DNA of 45,997 nt from Acidobacteriota bacterium (GTDB lineage Bacteria; Acidobacteriota; UBA6911; RPQK01; JACQSY01). The notes under the pieces are model-generated. The model had not been told where the DNA came from. It saw nothing but the letters and a program-made list of their open reading frames with translations, and ran no database searches. The position numbers and the translations under genes are program-made. Location: the NCBI GenBank assembly GCA_016211085.1, contig JACQSY010000116.1, forward strand, positions 1 through 45,997, in the 5' to 3' direction. Below are positions 23,071 to 45,646 of the stretch, in pieces; positions within the stretch are counted from its first letter, which is position 1, and the number at the start of each line of letters is the position of its first letter.

Positions 23071-24339
23071 TTGCGACTTCAAGAAATTGCTCAACGTATC
23101 CAGGCCGAGCTTCATGGCTGTGGGGACCTGGAGATTACCGGAGTCTCTTCGATGGAGGAGGCGACTCCGACCGAAATTGCCTTCATTGAGAAATATCACT
23201 TCTTGGAAGCGGGGAAGGAATGTGAAGCAGGCGCCTTTCTGGTGGACGAACGCTTGCGGCTGGAGGATTCGCGCCCTTACCTGAGCACGCGGCAGCCACG
23301 GTTTGCATTTATCCAGTTACTCCAACTTTTTGAAAAGGAAAAACAATTACGTCCGGGAGTGCATCCAACAGTGGTGGTGGGGGAGAGATGCATGATTCAT
23401 CCCACTGCCCGAATAGGGGCTGGCTGTGTCTTGGGAGATCGCGTGTCGGTTGAAGAAGGGGTGTTGATCGGTCCACTCTGCTTTCTCGACAATGACGTCG
23501 TGATTGGTGCGAGATCCATCTTGTACCCGCAAGTGGCAATCGGCGCCAACTGCAGGGTGGGCAAGAACTGCGTTCTGGCCAGTGGGGTGGTCCTGGGAAC
23601 CGATGGTTTTGGCTACTATGACCACGGTCAGAAGCGTTACCGCGTTCCACACCTGGGAAATGTAGTGCTGGCCGATGGAGTTGAGCTCGGCGCCAATACC
23701 ACGGTTGACCGAGCGGTGGTGGGCACGACCCGCATTGGTGCGGAAACCAAGATCGATAATCTCGTACAAATTGGACACAACTGCAGCATAGGTTCCAAGT
23801 GTCTGCTGGTCGCCCAATCGGGTGTGGGGGGGAGTTCGGTTTTGGGCAACGGCGTCACGCTTGCAGGACAATCAGGTGTTTCCGATCATTTAAATATTGG
23901 TGAGGGGGCCATTGTGATCGGAAAGGCTGCAGTGCGTCACTCGGTAAAGCCGCATGAGGTGGTCGGCGGTATACCGGCGCGTCCCATACGTCTCGAAAAC
24001 GAAATTGCAGAAAAAATCGTTGAGCTTCCAAAGCTCCTGCGCAGGCTGGAAACGCTGGAGCAAAAATCGGATGCAGGAACCCCTTCGGAGAAAGTCACCT
24101 ACAGCTCCTGGCGCGATGAAGTGGTCTCCATTCTCTGCAGACAGCTGCGAATCGAACCGAACCGCCTGGGGCCGGAGATGGATTTGAAGGAGGAGTTTGG
24201 CGCTGACTCCCTGACGGTGTTGAGTGTGGTTTCAGAGATTGAATCTCGCTTCCAGATCACTATTCCAGACCAGGATGTGAGGGACCTTCGCACGCTTCGC
24301 GCTATCATGACTTACCTGGAGAAAAGGCTTTCTCACTAG
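23071..24339 (+). CDS. lpxD: UDP-3-O-acylglucosamine N-acyltransferase (LpxD) fused to an acyl carrier protein domain
   Basis: LpxD adds the second 3-hydroxyacyl chain to UDP-3-O-acylglucosamine in lipid A synthesis, taking the chain from acyl-ACP. The 422-residue protein has the N-terminal uridine-binding domain (residues 1-95), a left-handed beta helix of hexapeptide repeats (about 98-300), the catalytic His236 in DNLVQIGHN, and VVGGIPARPIR. After a short helix (310-332) and linker, residues 345-422 form an ACP domain with the phosphopantetheine motif GADSL (Ser380). A normal LpxD ends near residue 340. The TTG start has GGGAGGG 9 bases upstream and a good promoter. None of the usual lpxA, fabZ or bamA neighbours is present. 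The fused ACP suggests a dedicated acyl donor (inference). Confidence 0.92.
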   Translation: MRLQEIAQRIQAELHGCGDLEITGVSSMEEATPTEIAFIEKYHFLEAGKECEAGAFLVDERLRLEDSRPYLSTRQPRFAFIQLLQLFEKEKQLRPGVHPTVVVGERCMIHPTARIGAGCVLGDRVSVEEGVLIGPLCFLDNDVVIGARSILYPQVAIGANCRVGKNCVLASGVVLGTDGFGYYDHGQKRYRVPHLGNVVLADGVELGANTTVDRAVVGTTRIGAETKIDNLVQIGHNCSIGSKCLLVAQSGVGGSSVLGNGVTLAGQSGVSDHLNIGEGAIVIGKAAVRHSVKPHEVVGGIPARPIRLENEIAEKIVELPKLLRRLETLEQKSDAGTPSEKVTYSSWRDEVVSILCRQLRIEPNRLGPEMDLKEEFGADSLTVLSVVSEIESRFQITIPDQDVRDLRTLRAIMTYLEKRLSH

Positions 24340-25709: not shown

Positions 25710-27215
25710 TTACATGGGGTCCTCTTCGCTCCTTGACCTCGCTTTGCAAGCTCCACTTGCGAACGTACGCTTATTCATGTCCCGAGACACCAGCAGGAGA
25801 TCGCGCAGCACGGATGCATAATGGGCTGCGGACCCGCATCCGTTCTCCCATTCAATACGCGCCCAGTTGCCCAGAGCCTTTTGCTCCGCCGGATTGTCCA
25901 GTAGTTTCTTTACTGTTTCAAAAAGCTGGTCCCGATTTTCCACTCTCAGCAAAGCGCCGGCAGCTTCGAACTGTTCGACGACCTCCCGGAAGGAATCTAC
26001 ATGGGGACCGACCACGATGGAAGAAGAGCGAGCCGCCGCTTCCAGAAAGTTATGTCCGCCGTGTGGAGAAAAAGTTCCGCCCATGATCGCGATGCTTGCG
26101 GGTGAGTAGACTTGAGGCAGCACGCCCATCTTGTCGAGAATCAGGATCTCCCAGTCGTTTGTCAGAGAGTCTCTGTGGGACCACAGGACAGCTTTTCTTC
26201 CCCTGGTGCGCGCCTGGCGCAGCACATGTGTGGAGCGTCTCACATGGCGGGGAGCCAGGACCATTCGCGTTTTCGGGTGCAGGCAACGGAGACGGTCAAA
26301 GAGTTCCAGCAACCATGCTTCCTCAGGAGCGTGAGTGCTGGCGCCTATAAGAATTGGAAAAGCAGATGGGAGCCAGGGGGGTGGGGGTAATTCCTGGAGG
26401 ATCGCGGCGCTGTCGAATTTAACGTTCCCAGAGACGGTTATTTTTGCCGGGTCCGCGCCGATTGCCTCAAACCGCCGGGCTTCCTCCTGATTCTGCACGC
26501 CAATCCAGTCGGCGCACTCCAGCACCTGTGAGAATAAATTGCGGGCCAAACGGTATCTGAAGACGTCACGCGGGTAAATCCGACCGTTCACAATGCAGAG
26601 CCGTGTTGAGAGTTCGTGACAGGCCCTGAAAAGATTGGGCCACAGCTCAGTTTCAATCACTGCCACCAGGTCAAACTTCCAGGATTGAAGCCAACGCCTG
26701 AGTGCACGCAACTGGTCCCACGGAAGATAGAAAACCCCTTTTACATCTTGACGTTCTTGTTGGATGAGTTCTCCGACTTGTTGGCCCTCCCTGTTACCGG
26801 TGCTGAGAAAAATCTCCAGGTCGGGCAACAAGTTCACAAGAGCAGCGGCAACAGCGCCGGCCGCGCGCATCTCTCCAGCAGAAACCGCGTGAAACAAAAT
26901 CCGGAGTTTCTCCTTTTTTCCCGAAGGTAGATTATGTGCCAGGCGTTCTCTGAGTTCCGCACGCTTTTCGTGGTGCCACAAACATGGCAGTGCTTTGAAG
27001 GGGACCAGCACCGCCCATACGGCTGAAATCGAGAGAAGTTCGTAACAGAGAAAGGACAGGGTTCGGAAATCTTTTTGGTGTGACCGTCTCAAAGGAGGCA
27101 ACACAAGAGCAAGCTCATTAAGTATTGCAGCAAGATAAGATTTTCTCAGGAAGACTCGTGGTGGAGCTTTCCATCGCCGTTGGGGATTTTGGAATAACCT
27201 GGAATGGAACGCCAT
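25710..27215 (-). CDS. waaA: 3-deoxy-D-manno-octulosonic acid (Kdo) transferase
   Basis: WaaA attaches Kdo to the lipid A precursor on the cytoplasmic face of the inner membrane. The core matches the GT30 family: an N-terminal membrane-associated helix (about residues 58-78), HAVSAGEMRAAG with the catalytic Glu, VIETELWPN, VNGRIY, SGNVKFD, PRHVRR and GGHNFLEAAA. The 501-residue reading frame is longer than usual because of about 55 extra N-terminal residues. The ATG at 27215 has GGGAGG 6 bases upstream but lies 70 bases inside the preceding gene. A GTG at 27104 would give a normal length but has no ribosome-binding site. The C-terminal tail is basic and unconserved. Confidence 0.92.
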   Translation of the reverse strand: MAFHSRLFQNPQRRWKAPPRVFLRKSYLAAILNELALVLPPLRRSHQKDFRTLSFLCYELLSISAVWAVLVPFKALPCLWHHEKRAELRERLAHNLPSGKKEKLRILFHAVSAGEMRAAGAVAAALVNLLPDLEIFLSTGNREGQQVGELIQQERQDVKGVFYLPWDQLRALRRWLQSWKFDLVAVIETELWPNLFRACHELSTRLCIVNGRIYPRDVFRYRLARNLFSQVLECADWIGVQNQEEARRFEAIGADPAKITVSGNVKFDSAAILQELPPPPWLPSAFPILIGASTHAPEEAWLLELFDRLRCLHPKTRMVLAPRHVRRSTHVLRQARTRGRKAVLWSHRDSLTNDWEILILDKMGVLPQVYSPASIAIMGGTFSPHGGHNFLEAAARSSSIVVGPHVDSFREVVEQFEAAGALLRVENRDQLFETVKKLLDNPAEQKALGNWARIEWENGCGSAAHYASVLRDLLLVSRDMNKRTFASGACKARSRSEEDPM

Positions 27216-31496: not shown

Positions 31497-32320
31497 AGGC
31501 ACCTATACATCGGGAAATGGCTGTCTCAGGCGCGGCTCCTCTGTCGGTCTGTGTGATCACGCACAACGAGGAGGAAAACCTGCCCCGTTGTCTGGAATCA
31601 GTTCGCGAGCTGGCCTCACAAATCGTGGTGGTGGATTCCGGGAGTTCGGACCGCACGGTCCAAATAGCTCGTGAGGCGGGAGCGGAAGTCTATGAACAAC
31701 CGTTTATGGGTTACGTCTTACAGAAGGAGATCGCTCTCCGCAAGGCCACGGCAAAATGGATCCTGTGCGTGGACGCCGACGAATGGATCGACCATGAGCT
31801 GAGATCGGCCATACGCCGGGTGCTCGCGAACGGAGCTTCTGGAGACATTTGCGGCTATTGGGTCAATCGGCGAACGTTTTATCAGGGGCGCTGGATTGAT
31901 TCGAGCGGCTGGTCTGCTGAATGGAAAATTCGCATGGTTAGAAAGGGAAAGGGACGTTGGACCGGCATTGATCCTCACGACCGGCTCGAAGTGGCCGGAG
32001 AAACTGCGCGATTTTCTGGACGGCTCTGCCACTTCCCTTACAAGAATTTTGCCGCCCATCTCAACAAGATCGACCGGTATACAGCCATCAGCGCAGGGAT
32101 CCATGTGGCCAATGGAGGGGGCCCTTCTTTACTGCGAATGTATGCTGAACCTGTTTTGAAGTTTTTCAGGATGTATGTTGCCGGTCTTGGAGTCCGTGAA
32201 GGCTTTCAGGGCGCAGCTTTGGCGGGAATGGGGGCCTTTTACGTGTTTTTAAAGCAGCTCAGGGTTTGGGAAGCCCGCCACACCCGCGGATCCATAAACA
32301 ATCCCCACCAAGAGCCATGA
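31493..32320 (+). CDS. GT2-family glycosyltransferase, LPS core beta-glucosyltransferase-like
   Basis: The 275-residue GT-A protein begins with LSVCVITHNEEENLPRCLESV, followed by VVVDSGSSDRTVQIA and the metal-binding CVDADEW. The C-terminal region (HDRLEVAGETARFSGRLCHFPYKNFAAHLNKIDRYTA) is typical of the WaaE/KdtX group that adds glucose to heptose I of the core. The GTG at 31493 overlaps the preceding stop, with GGAGAGG upstream; an ATG at 31517 is an alternative. It ends in an ATGA overlap with the double kinase. Confidence 0.88.
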   Translation: MKAPIHREMAVSGAAPLSVCVITHNEEENLPRCLESVRELASQIVVVDSGSSDRTVQIAREAGAEVYEQPFMGYVLQKEIALRKATAKWILCVDADEWIDHELRSAIRRVLANGASGDICGYWVNRRTFYQGRWIDSSGWSAEWKIRMVRKGKGRWTGIDPHDRLEVAGETARFSGRLCHFPYKNFAAHLNKIDRYTAISAGIHVANGGGPSLLRMYAEPVLKFFRMYVAGLGVREGFQGAALAGMGAFYVFLKQLRVWEARHTRGSINNPHQEP

Positions 32321-33753
32321 TCCGTCGATTCTATGATGGTGTTTACTGGGAAATGCTGCCCGCTGTTGAGGCGCTGCTGCCCGAGATCCTGAAGGGAGGT
32401 CCGGAGAGCTGTCATCGAACCCCCCGCAAGCTGGTAAGCAGCCACCGTCTGGAACGGCGTCTTTTTTTTGTAAAACGATATTTACATGGTACGTCACTAT
32501 GGCGCCCTGCCAAATTCTTTTTCAAGCCGCCGCGAAGCCGTATGGAATGGAGACGTGCACCGGAACTCATCCAACTGGGCGTACCGGTGGTAGAGCATGT
32601 GGCACACGGAGAGCAGTGGAGCCTGCGCGGGCTTCTCCAATCGATTCTGGTTACCGAGGCGCCGGCGGGCTACCTGCCGGTTTCCGCACAGCCCGATCGT
32701 GAACACCCTGCGCTTCAAGCTGCCGTCGGCCGCCTGCTTTCTGTGATGCATCGCTGTGGCCTGCGCCATGGAGATCTGCATCCAGATAACTTACTTTTTT
32801 CAGTCGAAAAAGCCCACTGCTGTCTGGTGGACCTGGATCGCATCGAGCCAGGCGCCAATCTCGGCACCGAGGAAAGATTAAGAGCGATCGCCTCGATCGC
32901 AAGTTTTATTCCACTGGGACCTGAATTCTATAGATCGTATGGGGAACCCTCGCTGCAGGATAGCCGGCAACTGGCGCAGTTAGTGCATCACAGGCGTAGG
33001 CTGATTGCCATCGAAGAAGTCAAACGTCGGGTCCCGCCGCGCCACCACAGCAATTTTCACCATGTCGAGCTGGGAGGACTGCGGTGGTGGGTGAGAGATG
33101 AGATGTTGACGGATTCGTTGAAAGAGGTGTTACAGGACGCGGATGAAATTCTGCAGGTTCATTCAGTGAAAACAACGCGGAGTGTGACCGTTGCCATGGC
33201 CGGTGAGTTCGTCCTCAAACAATACAAAGCGGGGATGGTGCTCAAGAGGATTCGCCGCAGTCTGAAATCTTCACGGGCGCGGTCTTCGTTTAGAAAGGAG
33301 TGTCATTTGGAAATCCTCGGCATCAAGACTGCTGCTGCGGCCGCCTTCGCAGATGTCAGACGTGCAGGAGTGCTGCAGCACAGCTGTCTGGTAACTTGCC
33401 GCATTCCGGAGGCTGCAGAACTTTCGTTGTGGAACGGAAAGCGAAGGGGCGCCATAAATTCATTGGCACGTTTGCTGGCGCGAGTGCACGACGAGGGCTT
33501 TAGCCATCGTGACCTGAAGGAGCAAAACATAATGTTGGATGCCAAGGGGGAGGCGTATTTAATTGACCTCGATGGACTTTCTTTCAAAGGAGAGGTGACC
33601 AGGCGCCGCGCCGTCGCAGACCTTCGTCGTTTGAGCCTCAGTGCCGTCCGCCTCCCCTTCAGAGTTTCCTTTACGGACCGGCTGCGGTTTCTTTTTATTT
33701 ACTGTAAAGCGCGCGGTTTTTTAGATTGGCGCCGTTGGGTTAACTATTTTTGA
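32317..33753 (+). CDS. Tandem two-domain LPS-type kinase (two KdkA/WaaP-like kinase folds in one chain)
   Basis: The 478-residue protein holds two complete small kinase domains. Domain 1 (about residues 40-220) has an ATP-site Lys in RRLFFVKRY (near 53), the catalytic loop HGDLHPDN (151-158) and the metal-binding DLD (172-174). Domain 2 (about residues 285-470) has VLKQY (near 301), HRDLKEQN (397-404) and DLD (417-419). Both sets of catalytic residues are intact. Single-domain relatives phosphorylate Kdo or core heptose at the inner membrane. Two active sites could phosphorylate two positions of one core, which is inference. The ATG at 32317 overlaps the stop of the GT2 gene. The next gene starts within a few bases of its stop. 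Confidence 0.85.
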   Translation: MIRRFYDGVYWEMLPAVEALLPEILKGGPESCHRTPRKLVSSHRLERRLFFVKRYLHGTSLWRPAKFFFKPPRSRMEWRRAPELIQLGVPVVEHVAHGEQWSLRGLLQSILVTEAPAGYLPVSAQPDREHPALQAAVGRLLSVMHRCGLRHGDLHPDNLLFSVEKAHCCLVDLDRIEPGANLGTEERLRAIASIASFIPLGPEFYRSYGEPSLQDSRQLAQLVHHRRRLIAIEEVKRRVPPRHHSNFHHVELGGLRWWVRDEMLTDSLKEVLQDADEILQVHSVKTTRSVTVAMAGEFVLKQYKAGMVLKRIRRSLKSSRARSSFRKECHLEILGIKTAAAAAFADVRRAGVLQHSCLVTCRIPEAAELSLWNGKRRGAINSLARLLARVHDEGFSHRDLKEQNIMLDAKGEAYLIDLDGLSFKGEVTRRRAVADLRRLSLSAVRLPFRVSFTDRLRFLFIYCKARGFLDWRRWVNYF

Positions 33754-33758
33754 CGATT

Positions 33759-34520
33759 ATGGCAGGCTCCCCGTCGACCCGATCGGAAATCATTCAGGTT
33801 GAGCGATACGGCTATTCTTACATCACCTTTCTCAAAGGAAGCTTTTTCTCGGAAAACCATCTTCTGGCCCGCGGGAAGGAGCGCCTTGTGTTGAAGATTT
33901 CCAGAGTCTGGCTGAACCATGGAGGACTGTTTCGGCGGCTCGAAGAATTCCTTTGCACGCATGAAGTTAAGAACTACCAACTTCTGGAAGGGATTCCAGG
34001 GGTTCCCAGGATGGTAGGACAGATCAGCGCGAGCGCCTTCTTGCATGAGTATATTGAGGGAAGCACGTTAAAGAAGTTGAAGCGAGAGCGTACGAAAAAC
34101 AAGCCGCAAGGCTTCGATTTACCTCCCGATTATTTCAATCAGCTGGAGCGACTGCTCACTCAGCTCCATGCTCGCGGTCTGATTTACGCCGACCTCGCAA
34201 AGCTGGATAACATCCTGGTGACGCCCGCCGGTCGACCTGGACTTATCGATTTTCAAATATCTGTGCGTATACCCACCAGGTTGACTGGAGCCGTGATCAG
34301 ACCGCTGCTCAGGATTCTCTTACGCTCTGACCTGAATCATCTTCTGAAACACAAACGAAAGCTTCAGCCTCTTTTGCTGACGCTGAGTGAACAGGAACGC
34401 TTGAGACGGCCGGGTTGTCTGCTCATTTTTTTTAAGCATTTTTTGCAAAGACCTTTTCGTTTTTTGAAGCGTACGATTTATCCAAAAGGAAGCAGCCGCC
34501 GCTGCAGTTCGCCTGGTTAG
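33759..34520 (+). CDS. Small RIO/LPS-type kinase
   Basis: The 253-residue protein has an ATP-binding region with RLVLKISRVW, a hinge-like LHEYIEGSTLKKL, the catalytic loop YADLAKLDNILV (Asp145, Asn151) and metal-binding LIDFQIS (Asp164). The catalytic His-Arg-Asp is replaced by Tyr-Ala-Asp, as in several small-molecule kinases of the RIO/Bud32/KdkA type, so activity is likely kept. A C-terminal basic tail with aromatic residues may bind the membrane. The start is uncertain: a TTG at 33750 overlaps the previous stop and an ATG lies at 33759; neither has a clear ribosome-binding site. The product probably phosphorylates a core sugar, but this is from context. Confidence 0.8.
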   Translation: MAGSPSTRSEIIQVERYGYSYITFLKGSFFSENHLLARGKERLVLKISRVWLNHGGLFRRLEEFLCTHEVKNYQLLEGIPGVPRMVGQISASAFLHEYIEGSTLKKLKRERTKNKPQGFDLPPDYFNQLERLLTQLHARGLIYADLAKLDNILVTPAGRPGLIDFQISVRIPTRLTGAVIRPLLRILLRSDLNHLLKHKRKLQPLLLTLSEQERLRRPGCLLIFFKHFLQRPFRFLKRTIYPKGSSRRCSSPG

Positions 34521-37748: not shown

Positions 37749-38726
37749 ATGCGCGTACTCGTAATTGGCAAGTCAAAGCGGCACACCCGAAGGAATGTCC
37801 TGCTGGCCCGAGGTTTTGCAAATCTGGGCCATCGCGTCGTCCGACTGAATTATTCACGTGCACGTTCGCTTGCGGGGAGGCGCCTGGCTGACTTTTACAT
37901 GCAGCTTTGGGTCACTGTCTTTCGACCTGACCTGATCCTGGTGGCCTCAACCGACATTCCTCCCAGAATGCTTTCGCGCTGGAGAAGCTTCTCGCGAGTT
38001 GCAATCTACTACGCTGATTACACTGACCCGCTGTCGGCACGAATCGTGAAGTGTGGCCGAAATGCAGATCTCTTCTTCATCACTAATCGGGGTCAGATCC
38101 CGGCGTTGTATGAGGAAGGTGTTAAGGAGGTGCATTTCGTCACCGGAGGCTGCGATGCAAAAGTCCATCGCCGGGTGTTTCGGGTGCCCGAACGTTTTCA
38201 AAGCGATGTCGCTTTTATCGGTAGGCCATCCCCCACTGAACGAGTTGAATTCTTGCGGGATTTGCAGGCGAAGTTCCAGGTGAAGATCTGGGGACCAGGC
38301 TGGGAAAATTACGGGTTGAAGAGCTGTCAACAACACGTAGACATTCGTGATTACCGGAGAATCTGTGCGGGAGCGCGCATAGTGATCGGCTACGATGCCA
38401 CGGATCAAGTTGAGCTTTATTTCTCCAACCGGACATGGTTGACGCTGGGATGCGGCGGATTTCTGCTGACGCGGTACGTTCCGAGCCTGGAGCGGTTGTT
38501 TGTCCGGCGCAAGCACCTCGACTGGTTTGGCTCGATGAGCGAATGTGCGGAGCGTATTGAATATTATCTTGCCAACCCGCAGGAGCGAGAACAGATTGCA
38601 CAAAACGGCCATGCTCACGCCCATCAGAATTACCGGTTCTCCGACGTGGCCCAGGCAATTCTGGCCGCGGCTTTCCAGAAGCAACGGGAACAGGTTAACC
38701 CGCTCTCCGTCGCACCCATCTTGTGA
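37749..38726 (+). CDS. CgeB-like GT-B glycosyltransferase
   Basis: The 325-residue protein begins MRVLVIGKSKRHTRRNVLLARGFANLGHRVVRLNY and has a second Rossmann half starting SDVAFIGRPSPTERVEFL, then RICAGARIVIGYDATDQVELYFSNRTWLTLGCGGFLLTRYVPSLERLF and CAERIEYYLANPQEREQIAQNGHAHA. This is the DUF3880/CgeB-type glycosyltransferase arrangement. It is the last gene of the plus-strand core operon. Its end overlaps the end of the opposing kinase-like gene by 32 bases. Confidence 0.85.
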   Translation: MRVLVIGKSKRHTRRNVLLARGFANLGHRVVRLNYSRARSLAGRRLADFYMQLWVTVFRPDLILVASTDIPPRMLSRWRSFSRVAIYYADYTDPLSARIVKCGRNADLFFITNRGQIPALYEEGVKEVHFVTGGCDAKVHRRVFRVPERFQSDVAFIGRPSPTERVEFLRDLQAKFQVKIWGPGWENYGLKSCQQHVDIRDYRRICAGARIVIGYDATDQVELYFSNRTWLTLGCGGFLLTRYVPSLERLFVRRKHLDWFGSMSECAERIEYYLANPQEREQIAQNGHAHAHQNYRFSDVAQAILAAAFQKQREQVNPLSVAPIL

Positions 38727-39438
38727 TCCAGAGACGAAGTTGAGGATGGCAAGGAGGGAGTACATGGCTGAAATAAGCGGACAGAAACTCTCGCCGCTGC
38801 GCGCTGGCCAGAGAAAGTCTCAGCAAATTCCGCTCAATCCGAACAAGATCCGTCAGTCTGCTATGCCATGCGGATCTGCGCCGGGCCCTTTGAAAGTCAA
38901 TAAAGCGAATCGACCCTGTGTTCTGATCCACGAGAATATGGTGGGGATGCAGCCCGCGATGAACCAAGCCGGCTGAGTGCACTACGGCCAATGTGCGTCC
39001 GATTCCGTGGGCCAACTGAGATAACAGGGATGGCTCAAAAGAACCCATCCTTGAAAAGCAATGGTGAAGGTCTATGCCATTTTTTACGCCGCTGACCGCA
39101 AGCAAAGCTCTGCGGCCGCAGGTCTTTAGAAAAAGAGGTTCAGGAGAAACCTGGGCCCCATGGAGCATCTTGAGGGCCTCCCATTCTCGTCTCGACCTGC
39201 ATACCAGTCCGAAACCGGCCCAATAACTGTTGAGGTACTCGCGCCATCCGGTGCGAAGTCCGTCCTTGAGAAAGAGGATTTTATTTTGAACTTCAAGCAA
39301 GCTCACATGCGCCGTCCGCGACCGGTGGGTTCTCACACGCAACAGTTTCATCGGGTTCGGACATCCGGGATTTCCCTGAACCAAGCGATCCAGGGCTATG
39401 GGCTCGGTGAAGAACTTCCTCGGTTCGCAAGCTTTCAC
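38695..39438 (-). CDS. WaaP/InaA-like LPS kinase homologue lacking the catalytic Asp
   Basis: The 247-residue protein has a kinase fold: a Lys in ILFLKDGLRTGWREYL, an acidic helix (SRREWEALKMLHG), LLSQLAHGIGRTLAVVHSAGLVHRGLHPHHILV and FIDFQRARRR. The His in place of the usual Asn in the catalytic loop is normal for WaaP-type heptose kinases, and Asp181 of the metal site is kept. The catalytic Asp of HRD, however, is Gly162 here. It may be a pseudokinase or use altered chemistry. The GTG at 39438 overlaps the LpxL-type gene stop (GTGA) and has AAGGA about 8 bases upstream. The frame is open further up without similarity. It is the last gene of the minus-strand operon. Confidence 0.8.
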   Translation of the reverse strand: MKACEPRKFFTEPIALDRLVQGNPGCPNPMKLLRVRTHRSRTAHVSLLEVQNKILFLKDGLRTGWREYLNSYWAGFGLVCRSRREWEALKMLHGAQVSPEPLFLKTCGRRALLAVSGVKNGIDLHHCFSRMGSFEPSLLSQLAHGIGRTLAVVHSAGLVHRGLHPHHILVDQNTGSIRFIDFQRARRRSAWHSRLTDLVRIERNLLRLSLASAQRREFLSAYFSHVLPPCHPQLRLWITRWVRRRAG

Positions 39439-40442
39439 GACGGTGTCCTTCTGAGCGCCAGGCCCGTTTCCCTGACACGGACGTAAGAAGCGTAGAACGG
39501 GTAGCCGTGTGCCTGCTTGGAGGGAAGCCGCTTCCATCGTTTGTAGCACCAATGCCAGAATTCCGGCTTGTCGCGGATTATTCGTTCGCAATAGTCCAGG
39601 CATCGCTGTGTAATCTCACGCACATCGTCCTCAGGCGACTGGCGGCGGCTCCCCTGAATCTCATTGCTGAATGTCAGCCGGAATTTCCCACGGCCAAGCG
39701 GGTGAGCGACTGCATATATGATGGGTGCTCCCGTGCGTACGGCCAGTCTCGCTGCTGCGGAGTCACTGAAAACACTCAGGCCGAAAAATCTTACCCAAAC
39801 CCCTCCGTCACGACGGGGATTGAGGTCGTTGGCAAAAGCAACGCGCTCTCCATTTCGCAGCGCCCTCAACGCGACGCCGGCGGCGCGATGGCGCGGCACT
39901 GTCCTGTTTCCAGAATGTGCACGCAATTCATTAAAGACCCGATCGCAAAAAGCGTCGGAGATCGATTGCACCACGACGGTAAAAGGCTCTCCCAGCAGCC
40001 CGATGGCCAGTCCCACCATTTCCCAGTCGCCATAGTGGAGTGTGAGGCCGATGAGGCCTTTTCCACGCGAGTGCATTTCGCGCAGTCGTTCCAGTCCCTT
40101 CCAATCCACTTCCACCAGCCGCTTGAATTGTGCCGGATCCAACCGGGGTGTCCAAAAGTGAAGCAGCAGAGTGGACGCAAAATTCTGAAGCGACGCGCGC
40201 ACGATTGTCCGTTTTTCCCGCCCGCTCTTTTCAGAGCCAAACGCAGCCTCCACGTTGGCCATGCCGACGCGCCGCCAACCCGGCATCAGAAAATAACCCG
40301 CGCTGCCAGTCCATTGTCCGATGCACCACACCAGCGTGCGAGGTAAGCGAGGAATGATCGCCTTGAGCATCAGTATCCCCAGGCTGGCCAGACCATGACG
40401 GATCCTTATCCAGGCGCGACTATGTTTGTTGCGTGGCGACAT
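39435..40442 (-). CDS. Lipid A acyltransferase of the LpxL/HtrB family
   Basis: These enzymes add secondary acyl chains to Kdo-lipid A from acyl-ACP. The 335-residue protein has an N-terminal membrane segment (about residues 17-40), VGMANVEAAF, the catalytic HYGDWE (His136, Glu141), and the conserved RRDGGVWVRFFG and GAPIIYAVAHPLGRGKFRLTF. The C terminus PEFWHWCYKRWKRLPSK is the classic PEQWLWxHxRWK end. The ATG at 40442 lies 5 bases after the MsbA-type gene stop and lacks a ribosome-binding site, so translation is probably coupled. An ATG at 40370 would cut into the membrane segment. Confidence 0.93.
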   Translation of the reverse strand: MSPRNKHSRAWIRIRHGLASLGILMLKAIIPRLPRTLVWCIGQWTGSAGYFLMPGWRRVGMANVEAAFGSEKSGREKRTIVRASLQNFASTLLLHFWTPRLDPAQFKRLVEVDWKGLERLREMHSRGKGLIGLTLHYGDWEMVGLAIGLLGEPFTVVVQSISDAFCDRVFNELRAHSGNRTVPRHRAAGVALRALRNGERVAFANDLNPRRDGGVWVRFFGLSVFSDSAAARLAVRTGAPIIYAVAHPLGRGKFRLTFSNEIQGSRRQSPEDDVREITQRCLDYCERIIRDKPEFWHWCYKRWKRLPSKQAHGYPFYASYVRVRETGLALRRTPS

Positions 40443-40447
40443 GCATT

Positions 40448-42370
40448 TTAACTTAGTTCAGGCCGGATGACCCGGGGCAGTACCCGGTTTTTCAACTCAT
40501 ATTGCTTCAAGGCAAAGCCTCCAGACCCGGTTAGCTCTGAATAATTACGTGACCCCGGCGAGAGCTGAATACGGACCAATTCAGAGTAAATCGCGCAACG
40601 TCGAATTAACTCCGCGTGAGAACCGATGTCGGCAATTTCCCCTTGGCTGAGTACCAGAATGAAATCGGCGTTGACCACGGTGCTGAGCCGGTGAGCAATG
40701 GCAAACACTGTGCATCGGCCCCGCAAGAACTGAAGTGCTTTCTGAATTTGCTCTTCTGATTCAGTGTCGATTTGATTGGTCGCCTCATCAAGAATCAAGA
40801 TAGAAGGATTACGCAAAATAGCCCGGGCGATGGCAATCCTTTGTTTTTGCCCGCCGGAAATCCCCCACCCGAGCTCCCCCAGTTGCGTCTGGTACCCCTG
40901 TGGAAGGTGTGAGATAAACTCATGTGCCTGTGCCATACGTGCAGCCGACTCGATGGCCTGTAAATCTATCTTTGAGCTTCCGTAGGCAATATTTTCAGCG
41001 ACACTACCCTGGAAAAGCACCGGGTCCTGCGGTACGAAGGCAATGAGGCGGCGCAGAGTCGAGAGCCCGACGTCTCTGATATCGATTCCATCAACAAGTA
41101 TCCGGCCCGAACCGACGTCAAAGATACGAGGCAAAAGACTGACCAACGTGCTCTTGCCTGCTCCATTGGCCCCCACCAGCGCTACAAAACTTCCAAACGA
41201 AACCTCGAAAGAAATATCTCGCAGCGCTGCTCGGTGATGCCCGGGATAAGTAAAACCCACCTGATGGAACTGGATGCTTTTCTTATGGCGCTGGATAAAA
41301 GGAGCTGCGGAGGTATGTGCGTCCTCTTCAACCGGCAGCCGCATGAGGTCAAGAAGCCGCTCCGCTGCAGCACCCGTTTCCTCAATTTTGTTGGCAAGCT
41401 TGGTCAGCGGCTTGATGCTTTGGCCGGCGACTGCCAAAGCCAGCAATGCAGTCATAAAGCTAGAGGGATCGACACCCTGTCGGAAAATCTGCCAGGCCGC
41501 AGCGCAGAAAGAAAGGCTGACAAAGAAAATAGTGACGATCTCAACCAGGGGAGATGAGAGCGATTTTAAACGGTTGAGTGAGTGCTCTTCCCGCAGCAGA
41601 TCCCTATTGACGGTGCCGAACCTTTCCTTCTCCCATGCTTCAGCCTGCTGCAGTTTGACCACCTGCAATCCTCGCAGGGCCTCGTCGGCGCTATGAAGCA
41701 ACCTGGCGTGTTCGTGAAGAACCCGATGCGAGTGCCGGCGTATGGAAGACCCAAAGCGCCGCACCAGCAACATCATTCCTGGCGCACTCACCAGCGCTGT
41801 CAAGGTAATTCGCCAGTCGACCAGGGCGGCAACAGTGACTGCTGCCGCTGCCTGGCAGAGATCCCCCAGCCCCTTTCCCAAAATTGCCGTAAATCCGGAA
41901 CTTAAAACCGCGCAGTCCGAGATGATGCGGCTGATAAGACTGCTTTTGCCGATTTGCGTGATTGAGAGGATTGGAGCGCGCACCAGACGCTTGAAAATGC
42001 GCTCGCGCCACCTTGCCGTAGCTTTGAGGACCGCCGAGGCTGTTGCCAACTCATGACCAAACCGTGCCACGCTTCCCAAAACAGCCAGGAAAAAAATAAA
42101 ACCTATGACGCTCACAAACGCCCAGAACGGATCGGCGGGGACGATTTTGACCACAACTCTGCCGGCCTCAGGGAACCCGAATTGAGCAATCTGGTCCTGA
42201 ATCAGCTCGCCCGTTGATCTTTTTTCTTTCAAAAGCAACTGAAAAACAGAACGGGTCATCCCCAGACCCGCTCCCAACGAGGCGGCTGAAATCAAAGTTG
42301 CGGCGCAGGCCAGTAGCAATTGAGGTTTGAATGAGAGAAGAACGGACGCAGCTTTCCAAAATGGTTTCAC
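40448..42370 (-). CDS. msbA: MsbA-type lipid A export ABC transporter
   Basis: The 640-residue half-transporter joins a six-helix membrane domain (residues 10-330) to an ATPase domain with Walker A GANGAGKST (400-408), the signature ISGGQKQR (usually LSGGQ) and Walker B ILILDEAT near 524-530, followed by the switch His in AIAHRLST. It should flip core-lipid A across the inner membrane. The GTG at 42370 has GGAG 6 bases upstream. The extended loop between helices 1 and 2 (residues 45-80) is longer than in E. coli MsbA. It is placed between waaC and the LpxL-type acyltransferase, which supports the lipid A role. Confidence 0.9.
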   Translation of the reverse strand: MKPFWKAASVLLSFKPQLLLACAATLISAASLGAGLGMTRSVFQLLLKEKRSTGELIQDQIAQFGFPEAGRVVVKIVPADPFWAFVSVIGFIFFLAVLGSVARFGHELATASAVLKATARWRERIFKRLVRAPILSITQIGKSSLISRIISDCAVLSSGFTAILGKGLGDLCQAAAAVTVAALVDWRITLTALVSAPGMMLLVRRFGSSIRRHSHRVLHEHARLLHSADEALRGLQVVKLQQAEAWEKERFGTVNRDLLREEHSLNRLKSLSSPLVEIVTIFFVSLSFCAAAWQIFRQGVDPSSFMTALLALAVAGQSIKPLTKLANKIEETGAAAERLLDLMRLPVEEDAHTSAAPFIQRHKKSIQFHQVGFTYPGHHRAALRDISFEVSFGSFVALVGANGAGKSTLVSLLPRIFDVGSGRILVDGIDIRDVGLSTLRRLIAFVPQDPVLFQGSVAENIAYGSSKIDLQAIESAARMAQAHEFISHLPQGYQTQLGELGWGISGGQKQRIAIARAILRNPSILILDEATNQIDTESEEQIQKALQFLRGRCTVFAIAHRLSTVVNADFILVLSQGEIADIGSHAELIRRCAIYSELVRIQLSPGSRNYSELTGSGGFALKQYELKNRVLPRVIRPELS

Positions 42371-42388: not shown

Positions 42389-43402
42389 TCAAACCGGATC
42401 GAGGTTCGCAAAGGACAACTTGTCGATCACTTCTTCAGGCCCCAGAGCTTGAAGACAGCGCCTTCGGCATCGCGGCAGCAGGCAAGTATCGCATCCTGCG
42501 GGGCGAAGAATGTGTCCGCGTCCGGGAGGCCAGGGCCCGGTGCGACGGGGATCCGTAGGCCCGTAGAGAGCCAGAAGAGGTGCCCGCGTGGCGGCGGCTA
42601 TGTGCAAGGGCCCCGTGTCGCAGCCTACCACCGCCTCTGATAACTCGAAAAGAGGTTTCAGCTCCCGGAGGCTCAGCGCGCCAAAGAATAAACGCAGCCT
42701 TTCAGGCCTTCTGACTTTGCTGGCGATCCTCTGGGCTAGAGCCGCCTCTCGGGTACAGCCAGCCAAAGCTATTATCTTTCCTCGATCCGTCAGCCAGTCA
42801 GCTAGCGTGGCCCAGCAAGCCTCCGGCCACAGTTTGGAATCCCAACTGGCCGCCGGCAGCAGGGTGTACAAGCCGGAATTGCCGGATCCTATCAGGCCTG
42901 CCACCTTTCGATGATCGGCCTCGCTGCTGTACAGGTTAAGTTTCGGTGCGCTGGGCCTTGCCAGGCCGAGAACGTCCAGGGGCTCCAGGCAAGCCTCAAC
43001 TGCATGGCGCACAGTCCGCCGCCGGTGGGGCAGTTGATGCTCAATGAAAGGAAACATTCCTCGACCGATCTTTTTCCTTGCCCGCGAAAGCAACAGCAGC
43101 AGGTAACTGCGCCCTCTGCCCTGTAAATCAATGGCCAGATCAAAGGTGGTTTTTCGGAGTTCGGAAACGAGAGCGGTCAAACGTCTTGCGACAGGGGACA
43201 CACTTGAATTGCCAAAAGGATCACGAGGGAACAGCAGCAGCTCGTCTACGTCCGGGTGACCTTCCAACAGCGAAGACATGCCGGCGTCAACAGCCCACGT
43301 GATGCGGGCTCCTGTCACGGCTTTGAGTTGCCGCACGGCAGGGGTACTCATGACGATATCTCCCACCGAGGATAGCTTTATAATCAGGATTCTCTGGAGC
43401 AC
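42389..43402 (-). CDS. waaC: ADP-heptose:LPS heptosyltransferase I
   Basis: WaaC adds the first heptose to Kdo2-lipid A. The 337-residue GT9 protein starts QRILIIKLSSVGDIVMSTPAVRQLK and has AIDLQGRGRS, TLLPAASWDSKLWP, VVGCDTGPLHIAAATRAPLLALYGPTDPRRTGPW and a Cys-rich C terminus. It is clearly different from the waaF product. The GTG at 43402 directly abuts AAGGA, which is too close for efficient initiation, so the true start may differ by a few codons. It is the first gene of the minus-strand operon waaC-msbA-lpxL-kinase, divergent from the last gene of the window with only 45 bases between. Confidence 0.9.
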   Translation of the reverse strand: MLQRILIIKLSSVGDIVMSTPAVRQLKAVTGARITWAVDAGMSSLLEGHPDVDELLLFPRDPFGNSSVSPVARRLTALVSELRKTTFDLAIDLQGRGRSYLLLLLSRARKKIGRGMFPFIEHQLPHRRRTVRHAVEACLEPLDVLGLARPSAPKLNLYSSEADHRKVAGLIGSGNSGLYTLLPAASWDSKLWPEACWATLADWLTDRGKIIALAGCTREAALAQRIASKVRRPERLRLFFGALSLRELKPLFELSEAVVGCDTGPLHIAAATRAPLLALYGPTDPRRTGPWPPGRGHILRPAGCDTCLLPRCRRRCLQALGPEEVIDKLSFANLDPV

Positions 43403-43447: not shown

Positions 43448-45646
43448 ATGAGCGAAAGCTGGATACTGTGGACACTTGGAAAGGGCTACGCGGGATCGAT
43501 TCTCAAGACCTGCGAGTGGGTCCGCGCTTCACATGAGCCGGACGAAACGGCGGTCATCTCCAATGATTTCTTTGGCATCAACGTTGCCGCCAGCCCGGAG
43601 CCTGATTCGGCGGATATCATTGTCGCGCGATTAAGAGAGTTGGGACTCCGCCATGTGCGAATGGATTTTGGTTACTGTTCATTCGATTCCTACCCGGAAG
43701 ACCTGTTTGTGAGATTGACAGAAGAAGGCTTTCGTGTGTCGGTTCGACTGGTGCCTCCACCGGAGGAAGCCTGCCGGCTTCACTCAGACTCGCAGCGCCG
43801 TAAAAAATGGGGGTGTTTTGTTGAGAAGGCGGCTGAGCGCTTGCACGATCGTCTTGAGCTGCTGGAAATCGGATCTACTCCCAACCGCTCGCGCTGGTCA
43901 GGGTTTGGCCCGGGAAACTACCTGGAAGCATGGTCGCTGGCCTGCGTGGCTCTGGCTGGATCGAAGATTCCCCTGGGAGGTCCCGGTGTTTCAGATTTTG
44001 AGCCTTTCCACAATGCAGCCCTCTTGAGGGCCATGGCTTCCCTGGGAAGAGTTCCCGACGTCCACACCGACCAGCTTTTTGTAGAGCGTGTAACGGAACC
44101 TGAAGCATACGATCACCGCATTGCAGGGTCTGGAATAGGCCGGCTGCTAAAGTTCAATCTGATCAAGAAGGCGCACGTTTTGTCGGCAATCTCGAGAGAC
44201 TTTGGGATCGGTCGCACTTTTTGTACCCATGTTTGTTGGAGCCGTCGGCGCGTCCAGCGGGTGCAGGAAGATTTTGAATCAAAACAAGCGGACTATCTGG
44301 TTCGCTACTACTTGCTGGCGGCTGCGTCGGGAGCACTGCACAGAGTTTACTGGGGACCCCTTTCAGGACAGCGTGAAGGACTGCTGGATGACGGCACCAC
44401 GCATTATCCCGCTATTCCGCGTGTTGCTTTTCATGAGCAAAGTTTTGGGCAACCTTCTTTATGGAGGTCTCGACCTGCTTTTGCCGCCCTGGCCCATCTG
44501 GTACGCACATTTAGTGGAGCGCGCGTGTCTGGCGCATGCACGGGTGAAAATGCGCGGCTGCTCGAAGTCGTGCTGCGGGACGGTGGAATCATTCATGTGG
44601 GTTGGACCAGGGATAGGGGGGCGTTACCTCTTGCTGAGATTTATAGCCCGGCTCATCTGCAGCATGCTGTGGCACGCTCGCACATTGGAGCGCAGCTCCC
44701 GGCTGAGCACGCCGCCTTAACTGAAACGCCGGTATTCTTGCACTGGCGTGGCGAACTTGCTCCTCCTCTGCCTGGGCTGACTCAAATAGACCAGAAGAAG
44801 TTTTTCATAAGCATCCCTGAGCCTACGGTCGGTCACTGGAGCAACGAAAGCTACGAGGGTGTTGCAGCAGAACATCTTCTGCAGATCCTGGCGGGCTCGA
44901 GCACTACCATTAACCCGGAGCACTTGGAGAGGGTTGTTCCCGCACTGATTTATCGCACGCGCCGCAATCGCGTCTGGAAGATAGGTCCCCCGGGTCACTC
45001 CCCCGCCCTGGTCATCAAGAAATTTCCGTCCGGGCGGAGAAAGAAAAAAAAGCCGTGCCGTAACTGGAATAATGCCTGCGAGCTGATGCGACGTGGAATC
45101 AATACTCCTCGCCCTGTGGGTTTTCTTGAGAGCCGCACTGGGAAAGATCCTGGTTATTTCGTATCAGAGAGTTTTGAGGGCGCCGCTTCCGCGCGCAGCT
45201 GCTTTGAGCGCCTGCGCGAGCCTGAGGGAACGCCGGAGATTCCAAGAGAGTTCCTGTTTGAGGAGATGGCTCTATTTGCCAAGAAGCTGCATGACCGCGG
45301 GGTTTACTACCGGGACCTTTCGGCAGGGAATCTTCTGGTGCGCCGTTCGTCTGTAGGGAGGATTAAATTCTCGTTGGTGGATCCGGGGCGCGCCCGCTTT
45401 TTCCGGAAGCCGCTGCCGCTGAGATTGCGGTTGGCTGATCTGATGCGCCTGGTCCATCCCTTGAGCTGGAAATGCCGTGAGGAGTTGGTGCGGTGTTATT
45501 TTGCCGACGACGGCAGATTCGATCGGCGGGTTTACTTTCTGGCGTTTGTTTATTATGACTGCAAGACGGCCGTGAAGCGTTTCTTGAAACGTGCGGGACA
45601 AAAGCGCAACGGTTATGGACCGCTCCTGAGGCGCATTCGACGCTAG
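43448..45646 (+). CDS. Fusion of a degenerate glycoside-hydrolase-like barrel and an LPS-type kinase
   Basis: The 732-residue protein has two parts. Residues 38-400 resemble a clan-A glycosidase TIM barrel: FFGINVA, LRELGLRHVRMDFGYCSFD, LLEIGSTPNRSRWSGFGPGNYLEAW, HTDQLFVE, RTFCTHVCWSRR and YYLLAAASGALHRVYWG. The acid/base Glu expected in EIGNEPN is replaced (EIGSTPN, 140-146). The nucleophile Glu expected before the VCWS strand is His261. Residues about 495-732 form a kinase with ALVIKKF (Lys524/525), a basic KKKK loop, YYRDLSAGN (Asp623, Asn628) and LVDPGRARFF (Asp645), all intact. A sugar-binding barrel may present core oligosaccharide to the kinase (inference). There is no signal peptide, so it acts in the cytoplasm. 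Confidence 0.8.
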   Translation: MSESWILWTLGKGYAGSILKTCEWVRASHEPDETAVISNDFFGINVAASPEPDSADIIVARLRELGLRHVRMDFGYCSFDSYPEDLFVRLTEEGFRVSVRLVPPPEEACRLHSDSQRRKKWGCFVEKAAERLHDRLELLEIGSTPNRSRWSGFGPGNYLEAWSLACVALAGSKIPLGGPGVSDFEPFHNAALLRAMASLGRVPDVHTDQLFVERVTEPEAYDHRIAGSGIGRLLKFNLIKKAHVLSAISRDFGIGRTFCTHVCWSRRRVQRVQEDFESKQADYLVRYYLLAAASGALHRVYWGPLSGQREGLLDDGTTHYPAIPRVAFHEQSFGQPSLWRSRPAFAALAHLVRTFSGARVSGACTGENARLLEVVLRDGGIIHVGWTRDRGALPLAEIYSPAHLQHAVARSHIGAQLPAEHAALTETPVFLHWRGELAPPLPGLTQIDQKKFFISIPEPTVGHWSNESYEGVAAEHLLQILAGSSTTINPEHLERVVPALIYRTRRNRVWKIGPPGHSPALVIKKFPSGRRKKKKPCRNWNNACELMRRGINTPRPVGFLESRTGKDPGYFVSESFEGAASARSCFERLREPEGTPEIPREFLFEEMALFAKKLHDRGVYYRDLSAGNLLVRRSSVGRIKFSLVDPGRARFFRKPLPLRLRLADLMRLVHPLSWKCREELVRCYFADDGRFDRRVYFLAFVYYDCKTAVKRFLKRAGQKRNGYGPLLRRIRR

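Follow-up and report, generated by a model that had tools for sequence, protein, structure and literature searches.

A GH39-type barrel with altered catalytic positions fused to an LPS-type kinase in an Acidobacteriota LPS locus: a rare case of reversed domain order in a pair that seems to be undescribed

Glycoside hydrolases of family GH39, such as 5jvk, XynB and PslG (5bx9), consist of a TIM barrel followed by a C-terminal beta domain. PslG of Pseudomonas aeruginosa is a GH39 enzyme of the inner membrane that is encoded in a surface-polysaccharide biosynthesis locus; it keeps and needs both of its catalytic residues, E165 and E276, and carries no kinase domain (PMC9075953). The KL domains of Klotho are GH-A barrels that lack the complete pair of catalytic Glu residues and serve in binding, but these domains are pseudo-GH1 rather than GH39, and they belong to an animal cell-surface co-receptor that has no kinase of its own (PMC10628560). 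The LPS core kinases WaaP and KdkA form a separate group (Pfam PF06293; WaaP structure 6dfl), and in Pseudomonas WaaP the Lys, the HRD Asp and the DFG Asp are essential (PMC6147952). Here we describe a gene that joins a GH39-type barrel to a kinase of this last group. It lies in an LPS locus of an Acidobacteriota bacterium, on a stretch of 45,997 nucleotides (contig JACQSY010000116.1) that we call the window. Functionally, PslG comes closest to it as a GH39 protein in a surface-polysaccharide pathway, and Klotho as a GH-A barrel that serves in binding.

The gene (43448-45646, + strand) is a single frame of 732 codons with an ATG start and no internal stop; the open frame as a whole counts 735 codons, as the preceding stop in this frame is only a few codons before the ATG. 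Its product starts with an N-terminal segment (aa 1-34, 43448-43549) that is modelled as a helix over residues 3-27 and in which we recognised no signal peptide by eye. Then come a barrel with its C-terminal beta domain (about aa 38-435, 43559-44752), a linker (aa 408-463, 44669-44836) with pLDDT under 50, and a kinase domain (about aa 490-722, 44915-45613). An AlphaFold2 model of the barrel, built from a 45-row alignment, reached a mean pLDDT of 89.5 and a pTM of 0.92 and shows strands alternating with helices, as in a TIM barrel, and then a beta domain. With this model, the best Foldseek match was the GH39 enzyme 5jvk (E 6e-16), with GH5/GH30 and other GH39 enzymes ranking behind it. The full-length model (pLDDT 78.7, pTM 0.65) shows both domains, joined by the low-confidence linker, without fixing their relative placement, and its top matches were PslG (GH39, 8e-12), WaaP 6dfl (1e-11) and 5jvk, with Klotho lower down.

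Sequence comparisons agree with the models. Profile-profile alignment of the barrel with Planctomycete GH39-like enzymes gave a probability of 99.9 (E 4e-33), and the family profile matched the solved GH39 5jvk by sequence (E 3.8e-6). The TIM barrel proposed in the preliminary description is thus confirmed, with an affinity to GH39, and the protein can be placed among the clan GH-A (beta/alpha)8 barrels of GH39 type. The barrel had no match in Pfam or NCBIfam, no glycosidase model appeared among the weak Pfam matches of 45 family members, and the whole protein found only weak protein-kinase matches among PDB sequences with phmmer.

Both glycosidase Glu positions are changed, as had been proposed by eye. 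First, S143-T144 (43874-43879, +) align with the Asn-Glu of the "IWNEPN" motif of the Planctomycete GH39-like enzymes, that is, with the acid/base position after beta-4. Second, H261 (44228-44230, +) aligns with the Glu of their "WVTEICW" motif, the nucleophile position on beta-7, and falls on the column of "VWVTEIGW" in 5jvk. Using a simple pattern, we found a nucleophile-type Glu motif in 12/12 comparison GH39-like proteins and the NE motif in 9/12. Judged from these alignments, the loss of both residues makes ordinary retaining hydrolysis by the window protein unlikely.

To place these changes, we collected 83 distinct barrel relatives, mainly from Acidobacteriota and Planctomycetota; a scan of a collection of named genomes had given 46 loci and a search of Planctomycetota nearly twenty clear ones. 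None of the 83 has the acid/base Glu: position 144 is Ala in 75/78 members of the main clade and never Glu, and position 143 is Ser in all five members of the clade to which the window protein belongs. The nucleophile position behaves differently, with Glu in 78/78 of the main clade, His in the three proteins with the barrel-kinase order and Phe in two Nitrospinota barrels. Seven residues are invariant in 83/83, namely N146, R147 (43883-43888, +, directly after the acid/base position), W150, D183, E185 (43994-44002 with F184, +, after beta-5), R214 (44084-44089 together with E213, +, after beta-6; position 213 is Asp or Glu) and K241 (44168-44170, +). R73, D213 and E261 are additionally invariant in the main clade (78/78). 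The clade of the window protein has its own residues at two further sites: D73 (43664-43666, +, at the end of beta-2) is shared by 5/5 of its members, where the main clade has Arg (78/78), and E310 (44375-44377, +, after beta-8) is likewise shared by 5/5, where 77/78 main-clade members have Tyr or Phe. In the model, five of the seven invariant residues, W150 and K241 being the exceptions, come shortly after beta-strand 4, 5 or 6. From the predicted secondary structure, the conserved and clade-specific residues would lie mostly at or just past the ends of beta-strands 2, 4, 5, 6, 7 and 8, on the active-site face. The invariant N146, R147, D183, E185, R214 and K241 form a set of its own that distinguishes this family from GH39.

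Because seven residues are invariant throughout and the nucleophile Glu is kept in the main clade, the barrel is, as far as alignments can tell, rebuilt rather than decayed. The preliminary description had called it dead. This holds for the acid/base residue family-wide but is too simple for a family in which 78 members keep their nucleophile, and the invariant acidic D183 and E185, placed by the model on the catalytic face, partly go against it as acidic residues elsewhere in the active site; the TIM barrel itself stands.

These residues also give substance to the main rival explanation, namely that the barrel has kept an enzymatic activity by rebuilding its active site, which we regard as rather unlikely overall and stronger for the main clade. 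There, E261 may act as a nucleophile without an acid catalyst on substrates with a good leaving group such as phosphate or a nucleotide, possibly in a transglycosidase or a glycosyl-phosphate enzyme, and E261, D183, E185, D213, R214 and R73 are present in every main-clade member. In the clade of the window protein, D183, E185, D73 and E310 would have taken over, and the joint swaps R73D, Y310E and E261H/F resemble the rewiring of one site. GH families with an altered acid/base residue do exist, plant myrosinases being an example. However, both Glu positions are gone in the window protein, His is to our knowledge not a nucleophile in GH-A enzymes, the genomic setting is biosynthetic, and we know of no cytosolic substrate for such a barrel. 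A bolder form of the idea is that the family constitutes a new kind of enzyme, in which a GH39-derived site around D183, E185 and R214, with E261 in the main clade, would rearrange or extend the LPS inner core together with the kinase, for example as an acid-free transglycosidase acting on an activated sugar. We hold this to be unlikely.

The C-terminal domain belongs to the Kdo/WaaP kinase family (PF06293, 34 bits against a cut-off of 21.3, E 2.5e-8), as had been suggested from its sequence, and WaaP 6dfl is among its top Foldseek matches. It scores far below the NCBIfam equivalogs RfaP, the heptose I kinase (18.5 against 170 bits), and KdkA, the Kdo kinase (19 against 142 bits). The Lys and the two Asp residues typical of Kdo/WaaP kinases are all present: K524 (45017-45019, +) in a VIK motif, which by motif corresponds to K51 of WaaP (PMC6147952); D623 in the catalytic loop Y621-R622-D623 (45308-45331, +, a stretch that also contains the retained N628); and D645 (45380-45382, +) in a DFG-like DPG motif. 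The preliminary claim that the kinase keeps all its catalytic residues is slightly too strong, given that the HRD His is replaced by Tyr (YRD) and that we could not place the alpha-C Glu with certainty. The window protein thus resembles the known LPS core kinases in family score, fold, catalytic residues and LPS-locus setting, and differs from them in its low equivalog scores, its YRD and its fusion to a barrel.

In the family, association with a kinase is the rule: 53/83 barrels are fused to one, 50 in the order kinase-barrel and 3, including the window protein, in the order barrel-kinase. Another 19 have a separate kinase gene next to them, always upstream on the same strand, with a stop codon no further than about 100 bases from the barrel frame or overlapping with it. 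The remaining 11 show no kinase, although some of these sit on sequence cut by contig ends; they include L038 and L039 from Nitrospinota (probably membrane-anchored), L078 from Sulfuricurvum, L104-L106 and L108. Counting a barrel with homology to this family and a kinase in the same or a neighbouring gene as a member, the window protein is one. In view of both fusion orders and the operons, barrel and kinase must have been fused more than once, and this repeated linkage, in either order or as tight operons, makes it very likely that they share a joint function. The layout is therefore not unique, contrary to the preliminary description, which knew of no protein of this kind. What stands of its novelty is that we found no published account of a fusion between a glycoside hydrolase and an LPS kinase in the open-access literature that we searched. 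The window protein is a rare, reversed-order version of a barrel-plus-kinase pair that is conserved across several bacterial phyla and apparently undescribed.

The three barrel-kinase proteins, from the window, from L037 (Phycisphaerales) and from L107 (a Planctomycetota genome), group together in the barrel tree (support 93), with the two Nitrospinota barrels as sisters (support 97), and the other 78 members contain all kinase-barrel fusions and operon pairs; the kinase tree also unites the trio (support 98), although long branches blur where it belongs among the other Kdo kinases, and both trees come from short searches without bootstrap. The nearest relatives of the window protein are in two Planctomycetota genomes. 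Within Acidobacteriota, a phylum to which identity with named Thermoanaerobaculia and Aminicenantes protein records also points, 45/396 genomes gave matches, of which 44 were strong and the remaining one was marginal (E 7e-4), and in the class of the window genome a full-length copy was found in this genome only (1/38). No further barrel-kinase member turned up when we searched the L037 class (396 other genomes) and the L107 class (28 genomes). Horizontal transfer of the gene is possible; a search for foreign base composition saw none, the gene (GC 0.56, GC3 0.585) being like its neighbours. The two Nitrospinota barrels (L038, 2199-3707; L039, 3002-4531) have a hydrophobic start that resembles a membrane anchor and no kinase was seen next to them, which suggests from sequence a different cellular place. 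Main-clade barrels, among them those of L040, L041, L042 and L061, are preceded by a conserved W..(S/A)DQP leader, and the clade of the window protein is without it.

The loss of both catalytic Glu might also mean that the barrel is a functionless, decaying remnant of a glycosidase, or that the fusion is an assembly error. We rejected both, and consider them very improbable, on the following grounds: two other, independent genomes (L037 and L107) carry the fusion in this order; conservation is strong, with residues invariant in 83/83 and His261 in 3/3; and the gene shows neither stop codons nor a break in composition (GC 0.56 against 0.55 for the window).

The gene lies in an LPS locus and has several neighbours on the - strand: a GT9-family heptosyltransferase gene (42389-43402), divergently transcribed from the fusion gene, an ABC exporter of MsbA-type layout (40448-42370), a lipid A acyltransferase family gene (39435-40442), a separate Kdo/WaaP kinase (38695-39603) and, further away, a WaaA-family Kdo transferase (25710-27215). 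The LPS genes of the window also include an LpxD-like acyltransferase, more than one heptosyltransferase and several Kdo/WaaP kinase domains. Elsewhere, the barrel-kinase gene of L037 adjoins LptD, and a heptosyltransferase and an O-antigen ligase lie near the barrel gene of L042. In Sulfuricurvum (L078, 7672-10807), the barrel follows, in place of a kinase, a sulfatase-fold protein split over two frames, with heptosyltransferases on the other side; the sulfatase fold includes LPS phosphoethanolamine transferases. The L061 barrel has cell-wall and RNase neighbours instead of LPS genes, namely PBP2, RodA-type and RNase E/G genes.

Taking as a basis the two folds and families, the loss of both Glu, the invariant face, the frequent pairing with a kinase and the LPS-locus setting, all of which are observed, we favour, at a probability of about one half, that the barrel is a charged sugar-binding pocket which presents an LPS-core acceptor to the kinase. 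The invariant charged face argues for a conserved ligand, and thereby for recognition and presentation of such an acceptor. The window protein would then be an LPS-core kinase of the cytoplasm that carries a domain for handling its substrate. Its WaaP-type kinase would transfer a phosphate from ATP to an inner-core sugar, probably Kdo or heptose, and its barrel would have given up glycoside cleavage. Instead, the old active-site face (N146, R147, D183, E185, E213, R214 and K241), joined by D73, H261 and E310 in the clade of the window protein, would hold an anionic core oligosaccharide on its lipid carrier, and the flexible linker would tether the barrel so that the sugar can be presented to the kinase. 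Some points count against acceptor presentation: a pure binding module does not obviously need the nucleophile Glu that all 78 main-clade members keep, several barrels have no kinase, the neighbours in L061 are not LPS genes, and the full-length model does not fix how the two domains sit relative to each other.

As an alternative that we find less probable than a rebuilt enzyme, the barrel could have a structural or regulatory role without touching the sugar, binding either the membrane or a protein such as acyl-ACP, a heptosyltransferase or its own kinase. Acyl-ACP stabilises Pseudomonas WaaP (PMC6147952), the pocket of the beta-Klotho pseudo-glycosidase binds a peptide (PMC10628560), and many relatives have hydrophobic or amphipathic N-terminal segments, all of which would fit a role of this kind. 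However, most of the invariant residues are predicted to lie on the former catalytic face, a pattern that favours a conserved, small and polar ligand over the variable surface of a protein.

Outside Proteobacteria the chemistry of the LPS core is poorly known. The pair, which occurs in Acidobacteriota and Planctomycetota and has outliers with the barrel only in Nitrospinota and Campylobacterota, speaks for a core-modification step that these groups share. The family also offers a clean case of a catalytic pair lost in two steps within a glycosidase fold, the acid/base residue in all members and the nucleophile in one clade only, and thereby a way to ask at what point a glycosidase is no longer an enzyme.

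Further unusual genes lie in the same locus. One ORF (23071-24339, +) combines an LpxD-type N-terminal domain, hexapeptide repeats and a PP-binding acyl-carrier domain, and this LpxD-ACP fusion adjoins a ketoacyl synthase gene. Another (32266-33753, +) holds two tandem Kdo/WaaP kinase domains and is followed by a third, weak kinase-fold ORF (33750-34520, +); with the kinase at 38695-39603 and the fusion gene, the locus counts at least five kinase-fold domains. Finally, the genome holds two WaaA-family (PF04413) genes, on contigs C38 and C103.
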